The notes under the pieces are model-generated. The model was not told the DNA's origin. It did no database searches and saw only the letters and a list, made by a program, of their open reading frames with translations. A DNA stretch of 36,463 nucleotides from a virus. Shown in pieces: positions 11,489 to 29,772 of this stretch; the stretch's first letter is position 1, and each line of letters starts with the position of its first letter. The DNA is taken from IMG/VR virus record IMGVR_UViG_3300021363_000015, positions 1-36,463 of that record; one strand, 5' to 3'. Both the position numbers and the translations under genes were made by a program.

Positions 11489-14400
11489 ATGACAACTACG
11501 TCATATAATATTTATCAACAAATTACTTCTGTTAGATTGTCTTCTACGGCCAATCTTTCGGGTAATTATTTCAATGGTGCTTTAAATAATGGTGTAGGTG
11601 CTACATTAACAGCTTTAAGTGTTGGAGCTCTTTCAGTTGATGGTATTTTAGTTGAAGTTGGAGATAGACTCTTACTAAAAGATCAAACATCAAGCAATCA
11701 AAACGGTCTTTACGTGGTTCAAAGCTCAGGATCTTCAAGTGGACTATGGATGATAGAAAGAGCACCTGATTTCCAATCATTAGAGCAATTAAAAGTTGGT
11801 CAGTATTTTAGTGTGGGTGCTGGCGCTACATTAGCAGGATCTATGTTTGTTCTTGTCGAGCCATTGCCTACCACGATAGGATTGGGAACGTTTAATTTCG
11901 TAGATGTTGCTGATGTTGACACTCCTTCTGGTCCTTTTCTTTTGAAATCTGCTAATTTTACAGATGTTGCAAATCCTGAAACTGCATTTAAGAATTTAGG
12001 AACAGGCACAGGATTAAGCATCACCATTACTGATAGTGATTTTTCAGGAGGTGTATATCAAATTCCAGTTCCATTTCCTGTTCAAGTGGTATGCGACAAT
12101 CTTTCTGTAGGCGGACAACAAATACGATTGCCCGTAGCTAATATAGACATTGCATTATCTGATGGAACGTTGATAGACAACTTAGAAGGTTTTGATCAAT
12201 CAAGATACTTATGTAATGATAAATCAACTTCTGCTGGTGCATATACGATTCTTCCAGAATTATATTTATTAAATTCTTTAAGCGGTCGCGTTGATCTAAT
12301 AAGCAATGATTCTTCAGTGACCATTACGCCTAATACTTCTAACAATACAATTGATTTATCTGTAGCGGTAGCCGGAGGGGTAACTCCTTCTCAGATGATT
12401 TTTGTTGATGCTATTAACGGTAATGATTCTAATACTGGTTCTATTAGTTCACCATTACAAAGTTATGAAGCAGCCAGATTGTTGGCTGTTAGTCGTAATC
12501 CACAATATGGAACTGGTCAAACTATTGTCGCTATGACAGCATTATCAATTACCGGAGATATGACCATAAGTCCTTATGTTAGCGTAGTAGGATTTGGTAA
12601 ATATTGTAGTATAATTGGAGTTACTGGAGATATTGTACTTGACGCATCATGGGGAACAACTGCATTTCCTGAAACAAACATTAGTAACATTGCTTTTGTC
12701 GCTAATAGTATAAATTTTGTATATCCATCATTTCAAACTTTTTCAATTATAAGATTTGAAAATTGTTCTTTACAGCTTTTAAATGTTGGACCAACAGCAA
12801 CGATTACAGGTTCAGACAATAGTGGAACAACAGAGTGTGAAACTGTTATATTCTTAAATTGTACTTTAGATCTAGTAATAGGAGAGCTAGAGCCACAATT
12901 TATATCAAATAATATTAATATGTTTTTATTTAATAGCAGTGTGTCAAATGCAATTGTATCTTCCGTAACTTCTTCTACTGTTGGAGCTATTTTGTTAGTT
13001 CAAGATGCAATAGCTAACGTGGGAAACATTACGTTGACCGCTACATCTACGGGAACACTGGCAACTCAAATATCTGGTTGTAATACGCAAAGTTCAGCTT
13101 TGACGATCAATGGCACATCTAACACTGTAACCATTGATGCAGATTCATATAAATTCAATGGATTCATCTTCAGCGGTGGCGCAAACTTCTCGAATATTAA
13201 CGGAGGTATACCTTTAATAATTTACATTGATCAATTGAATGGTAATGACAATAATAGCGGTACTATAAATTATCCAATGAAAAACTATGAGCAAGCAAGA
13301 CTTGCTGCAATAGCTCGATTAGGATCAGATTTGCAAACGCAAGGATGCTTAATTGTTGTAGTAGGAACTCACAATATCACGGGTGATATGACTCTTACTC
13401 CAGGTATTTCCATAGATTCTCAATCTAGCCCGTATAAATCAGGATTTATAGTTACAGGAAATGTGATTCTTGATTCTAGTTGGGGAACAACATTCTCTCT
13501 TGTACAAGTAAGAAATATTTATATTTTCTTAAGTGGAGGAGGAATTTATAGTTTTGTTTTTCCAGCTATGGACGCAACAGGAAATAGTTTCTTGAAGTTT
13601 GCAAATTGCGAATTTAATACCCTTACGACTATGATTATTACAGGAGCAGGGTCATCCAATGGTATAGAAGAAGTAACATTTGAAAACTGTACAAATGACT
13701 TACAAAACTATTCTCCTGGATTTACAGCAGAAAATGTTAACTTATATCTCATAAATAACGATTTAAGCGCAAGTAATATAAGCATGACGGTTTCTACTGC
13801 GCTTGGTTTTAATTATGTATTAGCTATTAATAATGCTAGATTTTATACAGGTAATATTAGCGTAATAACAAACAATACAAGTACTTTGACTACTTATATC
13901 ACTGCATCAAATACCGCAGGTAAAACTCTATCAGTAACAGGAACTAATAACACAATAAATATTGATGCAAGCTCGTATCAGTTTGCAAGTCTCGTATTTA
14001 GCGGTGGCGCTAGTTACTCTAATATCAAAGGTTCATCTCCTCAAGTTATTTATATTAGCCAACTTACAGGAAACGATAGTAATAGCGGTACTATTAATTA
14101 TCCTTTGCAAAACTACGAAGCGGCTAGACTTTTAGCCTTAGCGCGTGGAGCATCAGACGTTTTTGAATTTACTATTATTGTCGTCGGAAACCAAAATATA
14201 AGTGGAGATGTGATACTTAGCCCTAACGTAAGCATTCAATCTTTTGGCTCAAATTATAACGGAGGTTTCAATGTAAACGGAAATGTAGTTATTGACCCGA
14301 ATTGGGGGGCAACAATAGATGCTTACTGTCTAGTAAAAGACCTTTATATATATATATCGGGAGGGAATTATAATTTTATATTTCCTAATGCTAGACCTTT

Positions 14401-19368: not shown

Positions 19369-19581
19369 ATGAGCTCAGCCATCGCATTTAAACAATTGAG
19401 ATCCAAGCTAGAATTAAGTCAGGAAGATTTAGCACATTTGTTGAATATGAAGCAATCAACATTGTCCAACTATGAGACAGGAAAGAGAAAACCATCATTA
19501 TCAGTATGCTATAAGATAATCAGGTTAATGAAATTAAAGAATATTATAGTTGCACTTGAAGATTTGAGACCAGAGGAATAA
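19369..19581 (+). CDS. XRE/Cro-family DNA-binding regulator
   Basis: The 70-residue protein has a helix-turn-helix at about residues 17-38 (SQEDLAHLLNMKQSTLSNYETG) and little else, so it is Cro-sized with no protease-sensitive effector domain. GAGGAG precedes the start, and a TATAAT at 19337-19342 is a likely -10. It diverges from the leftward early operon. It could control the TGGCAT-type promoters as well as its own region. A 6-bp hairpin follows its stop. Confidence 0.85.
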   Translation: MSSAIAFKQLRSKLELSQEDLAHLLNMKQSTLSNYETGKRKPSLSVCYKIIRLMKLKNIIVALEDLRPEE

Positions 19582-19865: not shown

Positions 19866-21035
19866 TCATCCTTTGACGCATAAAATTTGTTTAAGTGTAT
19901 ATAAAATGTCAACTAAGTCTTCTTGAGATTTCATAACTAAATCAATATCCTTGTAAGCCATGGGAGTCTCGTCAATCACATCTTCATCTTTTCTGCATTC
20001 AACCCCTTCAGTAGCTTTGATATGATCTTCAATAGTAAATAGTTTTTTGGCTTTGTTTCTGCTCATTGATCGACCAGCCCCATGAGAACAAGAACAAAAT
20101 GATTCAAGGTTTCCTTTTCCTTTAACAATATAACTTCTAGTACCCATTGATCCAGGAATGATTCCTAACTGTCCTTCCCTTGCAGAAACAGCGCCTTTTC
20201 GGGTTACCCATATGTTTTTATCAAAATGATTTTCTATTTGTGTAAAGTTATGATGACAATCAACTCTCATTTCGACTAAATGATCATATCGCTTATCTTT
20301 ACCATATACATGGTGTGAAACATCTTTTAAAACACGAAGCATCATTTCATTTCTATTTTCTTTTGCATAATCCTGACACCACAATAAATCTGCAATATAA
20401 GACTTAAATTCTTTTGTATTTTGAACTAAATAAGCTAAATCAGGGTCTGGCAAAGATATAAAATATTCTTTCATTAATCCTTTAGCTGTACCAATATGTT
20501 TTTCAGCACTTGTTTTACCTATATTCCTACTTCCACTATGCAAAACAATCCATGCATCATTATTTTGATCAGAGCATATTTCAATAAAATGATTTCCTCC
20601 TCCTAACGTTCCTAATTGAAGATAAGTCTTTTCATTAACTGGCGTTCCATCTGCATAAGTTGATTTAATAGATGACCACATACGTTTAGTTAATTCTTCA
20701 TTTGAATTGAATCCCACAGGAACAGATCGCTCTATAGATGATCTAAGTTTGACTAATGAATCACCAAGTTCATCAACCTTAAATTTAAATTTTACTGCGC
20801 ACATACCACAACCAATATCTACACCAACAGCAGCAGGAATAATAGCACCTTGGGTCGCAATAACGCTTCCTACTGTCGCTCCCATTCCCCAATGTACGTC
20901 AGGCATAACAGCTATGTGTTTAAACATAAATGGCATTTCAGATAGATTCATTAATTGCTTTACTGCTTCATCTTCAATTGATACATGATCAACCCATGCT
21001 TTAATAGGTACATTTTTACCTTCATAAATTTTCAT
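19866..21035 (-). CDS. rtcB: RtcB RNA 3'-phosphate / tRNA ligase
   Basis: The 389-residue protein carries the full RtcB signature: DVHWG (46-50), GVDIGCGM with metal Cys76 (71-78), GGGNHF with His149, HSGSRNIG with His166, HHNF with His261/262, GSMGTRSY (295-302) and SHGAGR with the catalytic His318. These match the Mn-binding and guanylylated histidine residues of E. coli RtcB. It uses GTP to join 2',3'-cyclic phosphate ends to 5'-OH ends, the ends left by many anticodon nucleases. In a phage the likely job is repair of tRNAs cut by host defence. It is transcribed alone with a small gene, away from the structural operon, from a divergent region with a 26-base inverted repeat. Confidence 0.95.
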   Translation of the reverse strand: MKIYEGKNVPIKAWVDHVSIEDEAVKQLMNLSEMPFMFKHIAVMPDVHWGMGATVGSVIATQGAIIPAAVGVDIGCGMCAVKFKFKVDELGDSLVKLRSSIERSVPVGFNSNEELTKRMWSSIKSTYADGTPVNEKTYLQLGTLGGGNHFIEICSDQNNDAWIVLHSGSRNIGKTSAEKHIGTAKGLMKEYFISLPDPDLAYLVQNTKEFKSYIADLLWCQDYAKENRNEMMLRVLKDVSHHVYGKDKRYDHLVEMRVDCHHNFTQIENHFDKNIWVTRKGAVSAREGQLGIIPGSMGTRSYIVKGKGNLESFCSCSHGAGRSMSRNKAKKLFTIEDHIKATEGVECRKDEDVIDETPMAYKDIDLVMKSQEDLVDILYTLKQILCVKG

Positions 21036-24009: not shown

Positions 24010-24175
24010 ATGCGAATTTATCATTAAAGACTTAGCATCTACTCGATACTATAAAATATACAAACCACATAACAACAATACATGGTTACTATTCAATGAA
24101 GAAGGTGAAGGTATGGAAATAAGTCCAGATTCTTTGTATAGCATGATTGATCAGCATTTTAAGGAAAACTTTTGA
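24002..24175 (+). CDS. Small protein, unknown
   Basis: A 57-residue frame from ATG 24002 (MVECEFIIKDLASTRYYKIYKP...). An upstream in-frame start at 23987 would lengthen the overlap without a better ribosome site. Probably a small beta-rich fold (NNTWLLFNEEGEGMEI). Its stop overlaps the next ATG by one base (TGATG). Confidence 0.55.
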   Translation: MVECEFIIKDLASTRYYKIYKPHNNNTWLLFNEEGEGMEISPDSLYSMIDQHFKENF

Positions 24176-24447
24176 TGTCTTATACATGTAAACATAATAT
24201 TGCATGTCTTCCATTTGTAGAATGTGTAATATGTTGGTCGGAAGAGGAAAATAAAATGGCAAATTGTATAGAAGCGGATAATGAAATAAAGAATGAATCT
24301 GATAGATTGAATGTTATGTTTCTGATTCGTCTGTTGGAAAAAAAGATAGAAGAAATTCATGATCGTATTTTCAACATGGAACAAGATATAAATAATATAT
24401 ACTGCGAAAAATGCCATCCAAAGTTTGATGATAATGGCATTTTGTGA
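24175..24447 (+). CDS. Cysteine-rich coiled-coil protein
   Basis: The 90-residue product has an N-terminal Cys/His cluster (CKHNIACLPFVECVIC). A heptad-like helix follows (VMFLIRLLEKKIEEIHDRIFNMEQDI), and a second CxxCH near the end (CEKCHP). The two Cys clusters could pair in zinc binding. The last codons contain the TGGCATTTTG element and the -35 and spacer of the promoter at 24425. Confidence 0.65.
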   Translation: MSYTCKHNIACLPFVECVICWSEEENKMANCIEADNEIKNESDRLNVMFLIRLLEKKIEEIHDRIFNMEQDINNIYCEKCHPKFDDNGIL

Positions 24448-24453
24448 TATATT
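24425..24453 (+). promoter_or_regulatory. Promoter of the RNA island, with TGGCAT-type element
   Basis: -35 TTGATG (24425-24430), 17-base spacer, -10 TATATT (24448-24453). The spacer holds AATGGCATTTTG, shared with the lysis promoter at 25007. Transcription would begin near 24460, exactly at the 5' arm of the first structured element. Confidence 0.6.
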
Positions 24454-24458
24454 GTTAT

Positions 24459-24563
24459 TGCCCTATTGTACTGATACCTGTCGGCTATATTATATCCATG
24501 CCGTAAGTGCTCGCGAGGTAACCGGAGGAGTGAGGCCGATCTCGAGTTGAGGGAACTAGGGCA
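24459..24563 (+). ncRNA. Structured RNA element at a transcript 5' end
   Basis: TGCCCTA (24459-24465) and TAGGGCA (24557-24563) can pair as a 7-bp closing helix. Inside, TCGGC (24481-24485) pairs with GCCGA (24535-24539), and CTCGCGAG is self-complementary. The segment is far richer in G and C than its surroundings. It begins at the predicted start site of the promoter at 24425. It is not a recognised tRNA, riboswitch or hammerhead. A promoter-proximal antitermination RNA (as in HK022 put) or a stable small RNA is possible. Confidence 0.5.
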
Positions 24564-24579
24564 CTAATTAGGAGTTTGT

Positions 24580-24732
24580 ATGACGCCAGAACAATTTGTA
24601 TTTTGGATAAGCGGTTATTTCGCACATAATAACATGGAAAATTATACTCATGTTGTTGATCAAGTTAGAGATGTTTTAAAACAAGTTAAATTAGATAGGA
24701 ATCAATTTGTTGTTTTTGAGACAACAGAATAG
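24580..24732 (+). CDS. Small phage protein (MTPEQF type)
   Basis: TAGGAG lies 7 bases upstream of ATG 24580. The 50-residue product starts MTPEQFVFWISGYF, an opening I recognise from many small phage proteins of unknown function (usually MTPEQFxxWLxGFxE). It sits inside the RNA island. Its TAG stop is followed in the same frame, one codon later, by the ATG of the next short frame. Confidence 0.65.
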   Translation: MTPEQFVFWISGYFAHNNMENYTHVVDQVRDVLKQVKLDRNQFVVFETTE

Positions 24733-24739
24733 TTTATGG
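24731..24739 (+). repeat. AGTTTATGG leader, copy 1
   Basis: AGTTTATGG occurs at 24731, 24808 and 24926, each time at the 5' edge of a foldable element; a variant (CTTATGGC) sits at 25013. Spacing is 77 and 118 bases. Confidence 0.7.
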
Positions 24740-24864
24740 ACACAGACAACGTGCAAGACGATCGCTTGCTATGGTTCCATACCCTAGATGCCGGTTCTGT
24801 GTCCGCCAGTTTATGGCCTTACGTGATGTTGATCCTAGGAGCGTGTGCGCGTCTTTTAGGTTAA
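24736..24864 (+). CDS. Possible 42-residue peptide overlapping RNA elements
   Basis: ATG 24736 opens MDTDNVQDDRLLWFHTLDAG... and ends in a hydrophobic stretch (LWPYVMLILGACARLLG) at TAA 24862-24864. It is in frame with the preceding gene across a single TAG. There is no good ribosome site, and the DNA also folds well as RNA, so coding is uncertain. A second short frame (24813-24905, 30 residues) overlaps it out of phase. Confidence 0.3.
   Translation: MDTDNVQDDRLLWFHTLDAGSVSASLWPYVMLILGACARLLG
24738..24808 (+). ncRNA. Foldable element A (closing helix GGACACAGA/TCTGTGTCC)
   Basis: Arms GGACACAGA (24738-24746) and TCTGTGTCC (24796-24804) give a 9-bp helix. Inside, GCAAG-7 bases-CTTGC forms an anticodon-arm-sized hairpin and TATGGTTCCATA another. 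G then CCA follow the closing helix, as in tRNAs, but no T-arm is present. Described as tRNA-like in outline only. Confidence 0.4.
24808..24816 (+). repeat. AGTTTATGG leader, copy 2
   Basis: Second copy of the nine-base leader; it directly follows the CCA of element A and opens element B. Confidence 0.7.
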
Positions 24865-24926
24865 TCAGTGATAACGCGCCCAATATGGTAGTAGGAGCCA
24901 AATAGACCTACATTCACAGGCCACCA
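24815..24926 (+). ncRNA. Foldable element B (closing helix GGCCT/AGGCC)
   Basis: GGCCT (24815-24819) pairs with AGGCC (24918-24922), with GTGA/TCAC continuing inward after a small internal loop. Hairpins GCGCGT/ACGCGC (6 bp) and GTAGG/CCTAC (5 bp) lie inside. A then CCA follow the closing arm. GC-rich for this genome. No tRNA T-arm. Could instead be partly coding. Confidence 0.4.
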
Positions 24927-24934
24927 GTTTATGG
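24926..24934 (+). repeat. AGTTTATGG leader, copy 3
   Basis: Third copy of the nine-base leader, at the 5' end of the tRNA-like gene and directly after the CCA of element B. Confidence 0.7.
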
Positions 24935-25011
24935 CAATCTTGGTCAAGTGGAAAGATAGTAGCTCTAAATGCATTTAACTACAGACACAGGTTCGATTCC
25001 TGTAGATTGCC
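24934..25011 (+). tRNA. tRNA-like gene with an enlarged anticodon loop
   Basis: Acceptor GCAATCT (24934-24940) pairs perfectly with AGATTGC (25004-25010). The T-arm is canonical: ACAGG TTCGATT CCTGT (24987-25003). A short D-arm GTC/GAT encloses a loop with GG (AAGTGGAAA). The anticodon stem is GTAG/CTAC (24959-24962, 24979-24982), but 16 bases lie between them instead of about 9. A canonical loop (C, U33, CUA, A37 ... A38) appears if about 9 bases (24969-24977) form an intron at the usual 37/38 position. That would make it an amber (CUA) suppressor. No CCA is encoded. It may instead be a degenerate tRNA or decoy. Confidence 0.6.
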
Positions 25012-25035
25012 TCTTATGGCATTTTGTTATATAAT
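25007..25035 (+). promoter_or_regulatory. Lysis promoter with TGGCAT-type element
   Basis: -35 TTGCCT (25007-25012, formed by the 3' end of the tRNA-like gene), 17-base spacer containing TATGGCATTTTG, and perfect -10 TATAAT (25030-25035). The expected start is about 24 bases ahead of the lysozyme ATG. Confidence 0.68.
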
Positions 25036-25065
25036 GAAGTAATTCAATATAACAAAAGGTGATTG

Positions 25066-25497
25066 ATGTATTTATCCAATGATTTACTAAACAAAATAAC
25101 TGTTCGTTTAATGCATGACGAATCTTTTAGCGGTAAAATTTACACTGACTCTAAAGGTTTTATTACAATAGGGTTTGGATTTAATTTAACTACTCAAGAA
25201 CTACCCATAAGTATCGCGCTAGAATGGCTTCACATCTTAATAAATAAAATTCAATTTGAATTAGAAAAACACATATCATTTTGGAATGAATTAAATGATG
25301 CTCGTAAGTATGTATTGATCAATATGGCGTATCAGATGGGTATTGGAGGATTACTTCAATTCCATGCTATGCTTAAATCGCTCGGGTCCAAAGACTATGA
25401 TGGTGCAGCCATTGAGATGAAGGATTCGGTCTGGTACAGGGATTTCACGACCCGAGCCTCACGATTGGTTAAGATCATGCAATCAGGAGAATTCTAA
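25066..25497 (+). CDS. Endolysin, T4-type lysozyme (GH24)
   Basis: ATG 25066 follows AAAGGTG. The 143-residue protein has the catalytic triad in HDESFSGKIYTDSKGFITIGFG: Glu19, Asp28 and Thr34, the exact spacing of T4 lysozyme Glu11, Asp20 and Thr26. The C-terminus (WYRDFTTRASRLVKIM) matches the family (RWNxxxxRANRxIxxF). There is no signal or anchor sequence, so release depends on the holin next door. It cleaves peptidoglycan between MurNAc and GlcNAc. Confidence 0.92.
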   Translation: MYLSNDLLNKITVRLMHDESFSGKIYTDSKGFITIGFGFNLTTQELPISIALEWLHILINKIQFELEKHISFWNELNDARKYVLINMAYQMGIGGLLQFHAMLKSLGSKDYDGAAIEMKDSVWYRDFTTRASRLVKIMQSGEF

Positions 25498-28526: not shown

Positions 28527-28784
28527 TTAATTTAACCTCTCATTCCAAGTTGATATGAATTTATCCCAATCCTTTTTGAAATTCTCAGGATTATGTTCTG
28601 TTTCTGTTTTTCCATAATATTCTTGTTCAAATGCGCAAGATTGACACTTTATTCTAAACACGTAACGAAAATAGTCTGATGATTGTGAATAAAATGTAAC
28701 TTCTTTTGATTCGCAAAATGGACATGGTTTTAACTTAACTCCATCTTTTACAGGTTCTCTTGTTTTATTATTAAATGGCCACAT
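28527..28784 (-). CDS. Lar-like restriction-alleviation zinc ribbon
   Basis: The 85-residue protein has LKPCPFCES (Cys21/Cys24), IKCQSC (Cys47/Cys50) and a C-terminal FISTWNERLN. This is the Lar-family layout (LKPCPFCG ... V.C..C ... A...WN.R). Lar of the Rac prophage relieves type I restriction by boosting host modification. Many phage relatives are untested, so anti-restriction here is a family-based guess. Confidence 0.75.
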   Translation of the reverse strand: MWPFNNKTREPVKDGVKLKPCPFCESKEVTFYSQSSDYFRYVFRIKCQSCAFEQEYYGKTETEHNPENFKKDWDKFISTWNERLN

Positions 28785-29743: not shown

Positions 29744-29772
29744 AGTATATGGCATTATGCCATACTAGTCAA
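29744..29772 (-). promoter_or_regulatory. Leftward accessory promoter with palindromic operator
   Basis: On the minus strand: -35 TTGACT (29772-29767), exact 17-base spacer, -10 TATACT (29749-29744). The spacer is nearly filled by the palindrome at 29748-29764. It should drive the Tad2-like gene and the block down to 25957. Confidence 0.75.
29748..29764. promoter_or_regulatory. Palindromic operator TATGGCATTATGCCATA
   Basis: A perfect 17-base dyad centred between the -10 and -35 of the leftward promoter. Half-sites TATGGCAT also occur in the spacers of the promoters at 24425, 25007 and 29801. Confidence 0.7.

Follow-up and report, generated by a model that had tools for sequence, protein, structure and literature searches.

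A candidate structured phage RNA leading an array of mostly CCA-ended RNA units

The DNA analysed here (the window) comprises the 36,463 nucleotides of the IMG/VR virus record IMGVR_UViG_3300021363_000015, from an uncultured phage. As judged by covariation with a homologue at another phage locus, its positions 24459-24563 (RNA A) are a genuine, evolutionarily conserved folded RNA. Quite probably, RNA A is the first unit of a processed multi-RNA transcript, a divergent relative of an RNA family defined below (family E), and active in trans; the most likely reading of it is a small RNA that is released by processing and acts in trans.

Pairing and covariation in RNA A

The G+C fraction of RNA A is 0.52, against 0.36 for the whole window, and a scan of the latter shows that 0.14% of its 105-base segments are as G+C-rich. 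Direct reading finds TGCCCTA at 24459-24465 opposite TAGGGCA at 24557-24563, closing the element, and TCGGC at 24481-24485 opposite GCCGA at 24535-24539 inside it; both pairings on which the initial annotation had based the structure are thus present. In 20,000 mononucleotide shuffles, a closing helix of 7 perfect base pairs never appeared. On the + strand of the window there are just 21 inverted repeats that span 60-140 and form a perfect 7-bp helix containing four or more G/C; among them are those closing RNA A and two downstream units, RNA B and tRNA-Leu. The minimum free energy of RNA A shows no gain over dinucleotide shuffles (z = -0.08 and -0.14 in two runs), unlike that of its neighbours RNA B, RNA C and tRNA-Leu (z = -1.9 to -2.8; with members of the other array families included, -1.8 to -3.0). 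Because the folding energy is no better than composition would give, the single sequence leaves the case for RNA A open.

A covariance model built from RNA A alone (R1) yielded one credible match in a search space of 559 kb, at L074:1934-2037 (E 0.023), a modest score in a structure-aware search, which favours paired hits. Run over three whole records, R1 passed nothing through the first filter of the tool used there, but cmsearch applied to the locus itself recovers the match. The match coincides with a single CCA-tailed array unit, L074:1935-2040, preceded immediately by three more E-like units and followed by a tRNA-like one. It is the one independent homologue of RNA A (n = 1; L073 has a near-copy). 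The two RNAs share TACTGAT, TATATTAT-TCC and GAGGGAA (alignment A3), and their helices differ by paired substitutions, with seven compensatory double changes and 97% of cells paired. This number of double changes was reached by 2 of 500 shuffles, and slid registers give 0-2. The initial annotation had itself named a lack of compensatory changes in homologues as the outcome that would count against the structure, a test which RNA A has passed.

Comparison with homologues refines the bounds of the unit to 24460-24562, from G24460 to C24562, followed by the discriminator A24563 and by CTA where others have CCA (24460-24566 in all, + strand). The outer helix, P1, pairs 24460-24465 with 24557-24562 (GCCCTA/TAGGGC) and has one double change in L074, from C-G to G-C; the pair 24459-24563 adds a seventh, in the window copy only. 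P2 pairs 24480-24486 with 24534-24540, contains the TCGGC/GCCGA helix and shows five consecutive double changes with respect to L074; its prediction from RNA A predates knowledge of the homologue. The distal helices, with their 5' side at 24495-24503, pair 24495-24497 with 24527-24529 and 24501-24503 with 24523-24525 (alignment A3), again with one double change. All these strands are read on the + strand, and the fold is a single long irregular hairpin rather than two stem-loops.

Neither ARAGORN nor Rfam detects in RNA A a tRNA cloverleaf with anticodon and T arm. A covariance search of Rfam 15 returned no family at or above its gathering score for RNA A, which bears out the earlier impression that it belongs to no known family. 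Blastn found no homologue of RNA A across all fetched loci, nor was one found in INPHARED, and an exact 16-mer of RNA A had two matches in IMG/VR, both coding coincidences.

The predicted promoter and the array in the window

A predicted sigma-70-type promoter at 24425-24453 (+; TTGATG-17-TATATT, with TG before the -10 element) would place the start of transcription at about 24460, within a base of the first nucleotide of RNA A; the scanner thereby recovers the site and start that had been proposed from inspection. Sigma-70-like sites are not locally enriched (9 found, 20 expected). Conservation of the promoter is partly coding, since it overlaps the 3' end of the ORF at 24172-24447. A similar promoter-like site precedes the first RNA unit of a related phage, L001. 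Matches of the promoter 17-mer in IMG/VR, beyond the relatives already known, are coincidences.

The spacer of this promoter holds ATGGCATTTTGTGAT, which is similar to the palindrome ATGGCATtaTGCCAT at 29749. The same motif recurs in the spacer of a second promoter-like site at 25007-25035 (+), ahead of the lysozyme gene (25063-25497), and L001 repeats the layout, with a second promoter-like site and spacer motif before its lysozyme gene. The palindrome-like motif ATGGCATtttTGCCAT lies in or near promoters at 24434, 25016, 29749 (+) and 19274, and has 10 matches with at most 3 mismatches in the window, against 2.3 expected. The Cro-like HTH protein encoded at 19369-19581 may use it as an operator.

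The initial annotation described a single RNA; the structured RNA stands, and what was missed is that three further RNA units follow it in succession, the four together spanning 24460-25013. The order is RNA A, a 50-aa ORF, RNA B, RNA C and tRNA-Leu. RNA A is followed not by a linker but by the ORF (24580-24732, +), which has AGGAG before its ATG, a stop codon overlapping the next linker and a match to phrog_35763 (function unassigned; E 3e-4). RNA B (24738-24808, +; fold z -1.95) has a 9-bp closing helix, the hairpin GCAAG-ACGATCG-CTTGC, the sequence GCCGGTT and a GCCA end. RNA C (24815-24926, +; fold z -1.9) is closed by GGCC/GGCC and ends in ACCA, so that both units have encoded NCCA ends. 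The last unit is a tRNA-Leu(TAA) at 24933-25013 (+), recognised by ARAGORN and as RF00005 by Rfam. Before each of RNA B, RNA C and tRNA-Leu stands AGTTTATGG. Since the scanner found no terminator between RNA A and tRNA-Leu, one transcript probably covers all the units.

In L001, whose lysozyme gene is orthologous, the promoter-flanked interval holds RNA B, a tRNA-like element, tRNA-Gln and two copies of RNA D (see below). Because the window and L001 have similar flanking promoters with different RNAs between them, the frame of the locus is kept while its cargo changes.

Arrays in other phages and the place of RNA A

In IMG/VR, whose contigs are possibly incomplete, array units were sought through pairs of linkers separated by 46-115 bases and through the 5' end of RNA D. 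There were many chance or coding matches, yet dozens of contigs have array units, and GTTTAT-type linkers with CCA-tailed units closed by 7 bp are seen in many. The recurrent kinds of unit are B, C, D, E, F, G and H. Over the loci searched, Rfam matched none of the families B-H, recognising only tRNAs and, elsewhere in L016, a group I intron and an abiF RNA. A P22-like portal protein is encoded in 20 of the 26 records searched and in the window. Because similar rows, absent from Rfam, are present in dozens of related phage sequences, the array RNAs seem to form a class of phage RNAs that has gone unrecognised.

RNA B represents a separate CCA-tailed family, with hairpin loop ANGATCG and then GCCGGTT. 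Homologues are found in L001 (4466-4541), L016 (8079-8152), L017 (3322-3390) and L046 (near 2780), and also in G010, where the hairpin stem has undergone a paired change from GCAAG/CTTGC to CCCGT/ACGGG. The closing helix occurs as GGACACA/TGTGTCC, GGACATA/TATGTCC and GGTCATA/TATGACC. Pair counts are omitted for this family; MAFFT misaligns the longer G010 copy. RNA C belongs to a family of ~110 nt with the core GCGCCCAATATGGTAG, a conserved hairpin loop AGCCWAATAGA on a stem with paired changes; its homologues in L109 (near 12100-12215, - strand, 78%) and L082 (7335-7450, 76%) have different closing helices.

RNA D is a widespread tRNA-like element of ~110-240 nt (L001, L017, L046, L072, L082, L109, L131-L152 and L163). 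Its acceptor is often GGCAATC/GATTGCC and adjoins a T-arm-like hairpin with loop TGCAATT; another arm has the loop GACAGTGA, and a variable insert occupies the position of the anticodon arm. No RNA D was found in the isolate phages of INPHARED, and neither RNA D nor family E in the plasmids of PLSDB. Families F (L064, L072), G (L140, L120) and H (L111, L099, L115) are structured RNAs, about 88-118 nt long and CCA-tailed, that recur in similar arrays and have no Rfam match. The single-cell genome BBSC-SA01, which is classified as Legionellales (PMC7453286), has one copy of RNA D on a contig of 36 kb, hence a hint at Legionellales as the host group.

Family E, defined here by the pattern GGCC-GACGATA-C...G-GAAAATA-GGCC-NCCA, has at least 20 members. 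They combine a 4-bp closing helix (GGCC/GGCC, GCCC/GGGC, GGAC/GTCC or GGGC/GCCC) with the symmetric internal loop GACGATA/GAAAATA; the distal stem varies, and most members end in NCCA. The pairs, the four outer ones among them, covary to a level reached in 0 of 500 shuffles. The pattern was found in none of 369 gammaproteobacterial genomes. Hammerhead and kink-turn readings of the loop were judged by eye and dropped.

A model of 16 other E units, with the L074 unit left out of the training (R3), detects L074:1935-2040 at E 1.4e-4; the loop strands of that unit are GATGATA and GAAAGTA. Run on the window, R3 gives no match at RNA A, which has TATTGTA/GAACTA in place of the family E loop. RNA A is, like E units, part of an RNA/tRNA array, and has a short G+C closing helix of the E type with covariation (GCCC/GGGC, as in L074 unit b). 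Its 3' end is A-CTA rather than N-CCA; an E unit of L133 also ends in ACTA. A model combining RNA A with the L074 unit (R2) gave 12 further matches, to E about 2, in arrays, most of these matches being family E units. With a two-end profile of 20 E units, RNA A excluded, 24460-24562 ranks first over both strands of the window. The L074 unit, the further hits of R2 and the two-end profile tie RNA A to family E; since RNA A is without the signature loop and goes unrecognised by R3, these comparisons suggest a divergent relative of the family and not a core member.

A putative mode of action and its alternatives

It is proposed that the promoter at 24425-24453 starts transcription at or within one base of the first nucleotide of RNA A, and that a single precursor would span RNA A, the 50-aa ORF, RNA B, RNA C and tRNA-Leu. 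tRNA operons are commonly processed by cutting short A/U-rich spacers just after CCA, as by RNase E and RNase P of E. coli. In the same style, the precursor would be cut between units at the A/U-rich linkers (CCA-GTTTAT-GG), and cutting would release stable RNAs, each closed by a short stem and most of them ending in CCA. RNA A would then act in trans during infection. Independent trans-acting RNAs fit better than a cis element because the unrelated folds share only their ends and linkers. A stable small RNA was already one option of the initial annotation and is the best reading of the putative RNA A product. The guess favoured here is that RNA A engages or decoys a host protein dealing with tRNA-like ends; the CCA ends and the accompanying tRNAs prompt this idea of a decoy or inhibitor directed at tRNA-handling proteins.

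Two other genes of this ~36-kb phage may be mentioned, one for a Lar-like restriction alleviation protein at 28527-28784 (-; Pfam PF14354, E 4e-10), the other for an RtcB RNA ligase at 19866-21035 (-). RtcB was considered as a partner of the arrays and rejected, being encoded in 0 of 31 array-bearing or related records; the window copy thus seems incidental and lends no support to a tRNA-handling decoy.

RNA A might instead serve as a cis-acting leader controlling translation or mRNA stability of the 50-aa ORF at 24580, whose ATG follows its end by 17 nt with AGGAG in between. This is unlikely, as the L074 homologue is followed by a tRNA-like unit and not by the ORF, and what comes after other family E units is mostly another RNA.

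The put RNAs of HK022 act in cis and consist of two stem-loops. Like them, RNA A is an RNA structure directly after a phage promoter, beginning at the predicted +1, and the L074 homologue, which has an AT-rich gap of some 150 nt before it, likewise heads a block. This accords with the other option of the initial annotation, a promoter-proximal antiterminator in which nascent RNA A would bind RNA polymerase in cis so that downstream terminators are read through. However, the scan from RNA A to tRNA-Leu found no terminator to be read through, no sigma-70 site was found just before the L074 unit, and the single long hairpin departs from the put fold. Moreover, family E units occupy any position in an array (first, middle or last), number up to four in one array and mostly encode N-CCA, and the promoter-proximal unit in L001 and G010, two related phages, is RNA B. 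An antiterminator is therefore judged improbable.

Self-cleavage, with the internal loop of family E as the catalytic core that releases array units, is very improbable: the core is compact, with short helices around the invariant strands GACGATA and GAAAATA, and occurs in arrays that need processing, but units without it have the same linkers and ends, RNA A itself is without the conserved loop strands, and no Rfam ribozyme matches. Chance pairing in a GC-rich patch, for which the near-zero fold z-score and the single close homologue could be invoked, is just as hard to credit in view of the seven double changes, the unit-exact homologue boundaries and the array context.

The proposed trans-acting RNA can be set beside several known systems. 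Stable RNAs without assigned function have been known for decades in the tRNA cluster of T4. T4 species 1 and species 2 RNAs (rnaC and rnaD) are small stable phage RNAs at the end of that cluster (NC_000866 annotation), and the sequence of rnaC has a tRNA-like T arm at its end. Blastn showed no similarity to rnaC and rnaD that would be worth noting; T4 is a large myovirus, and its stretch has no visible GTTTAT linkers. GOLLD and ROOL are phage or prophage RNAs without an assigned function, often near tRNA islands (PMC12286853). Both are in Rfam, where nothing at the array loci matches them, and many GOLLD members exceed 800 nt, compared with ~105 nt for RNA A. Some phage tRNAs rescue phages from tRNA-cutting defences, as T5 tRNA-Tyr does against retron-Eco7 (PMC11555353). 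The likeness lies in phage RNAs with tRNA ends, and in the tRNA of the window array; RNA A itself is not a tRNA.

A wider proposal, possible though doubtful, is that many phages with P22-like portals carry modular cassettes for CCA-ended non-coding RNAs, which have seven or more unrelated folds, are exchanged at shared GTTTAT linkers and together make up a trans-acting arsenal directed at tRNA-handling enzymes or defences of the host. RNA A would be one such cassette, and the hosts would apparently be uncultured Legionellales-like Gammaproteobacteria.

As these arrays show, phages can carry a long row of RNAs that differ in structure and have tRNA-like ends; covariation was counted for RNA A and family E. 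A locus that changes its cargo among relatives offers comparative material on what such RNAs do, and its contents suggest that a sizeable class of RNAs escapes both phage annotation and Rfam.
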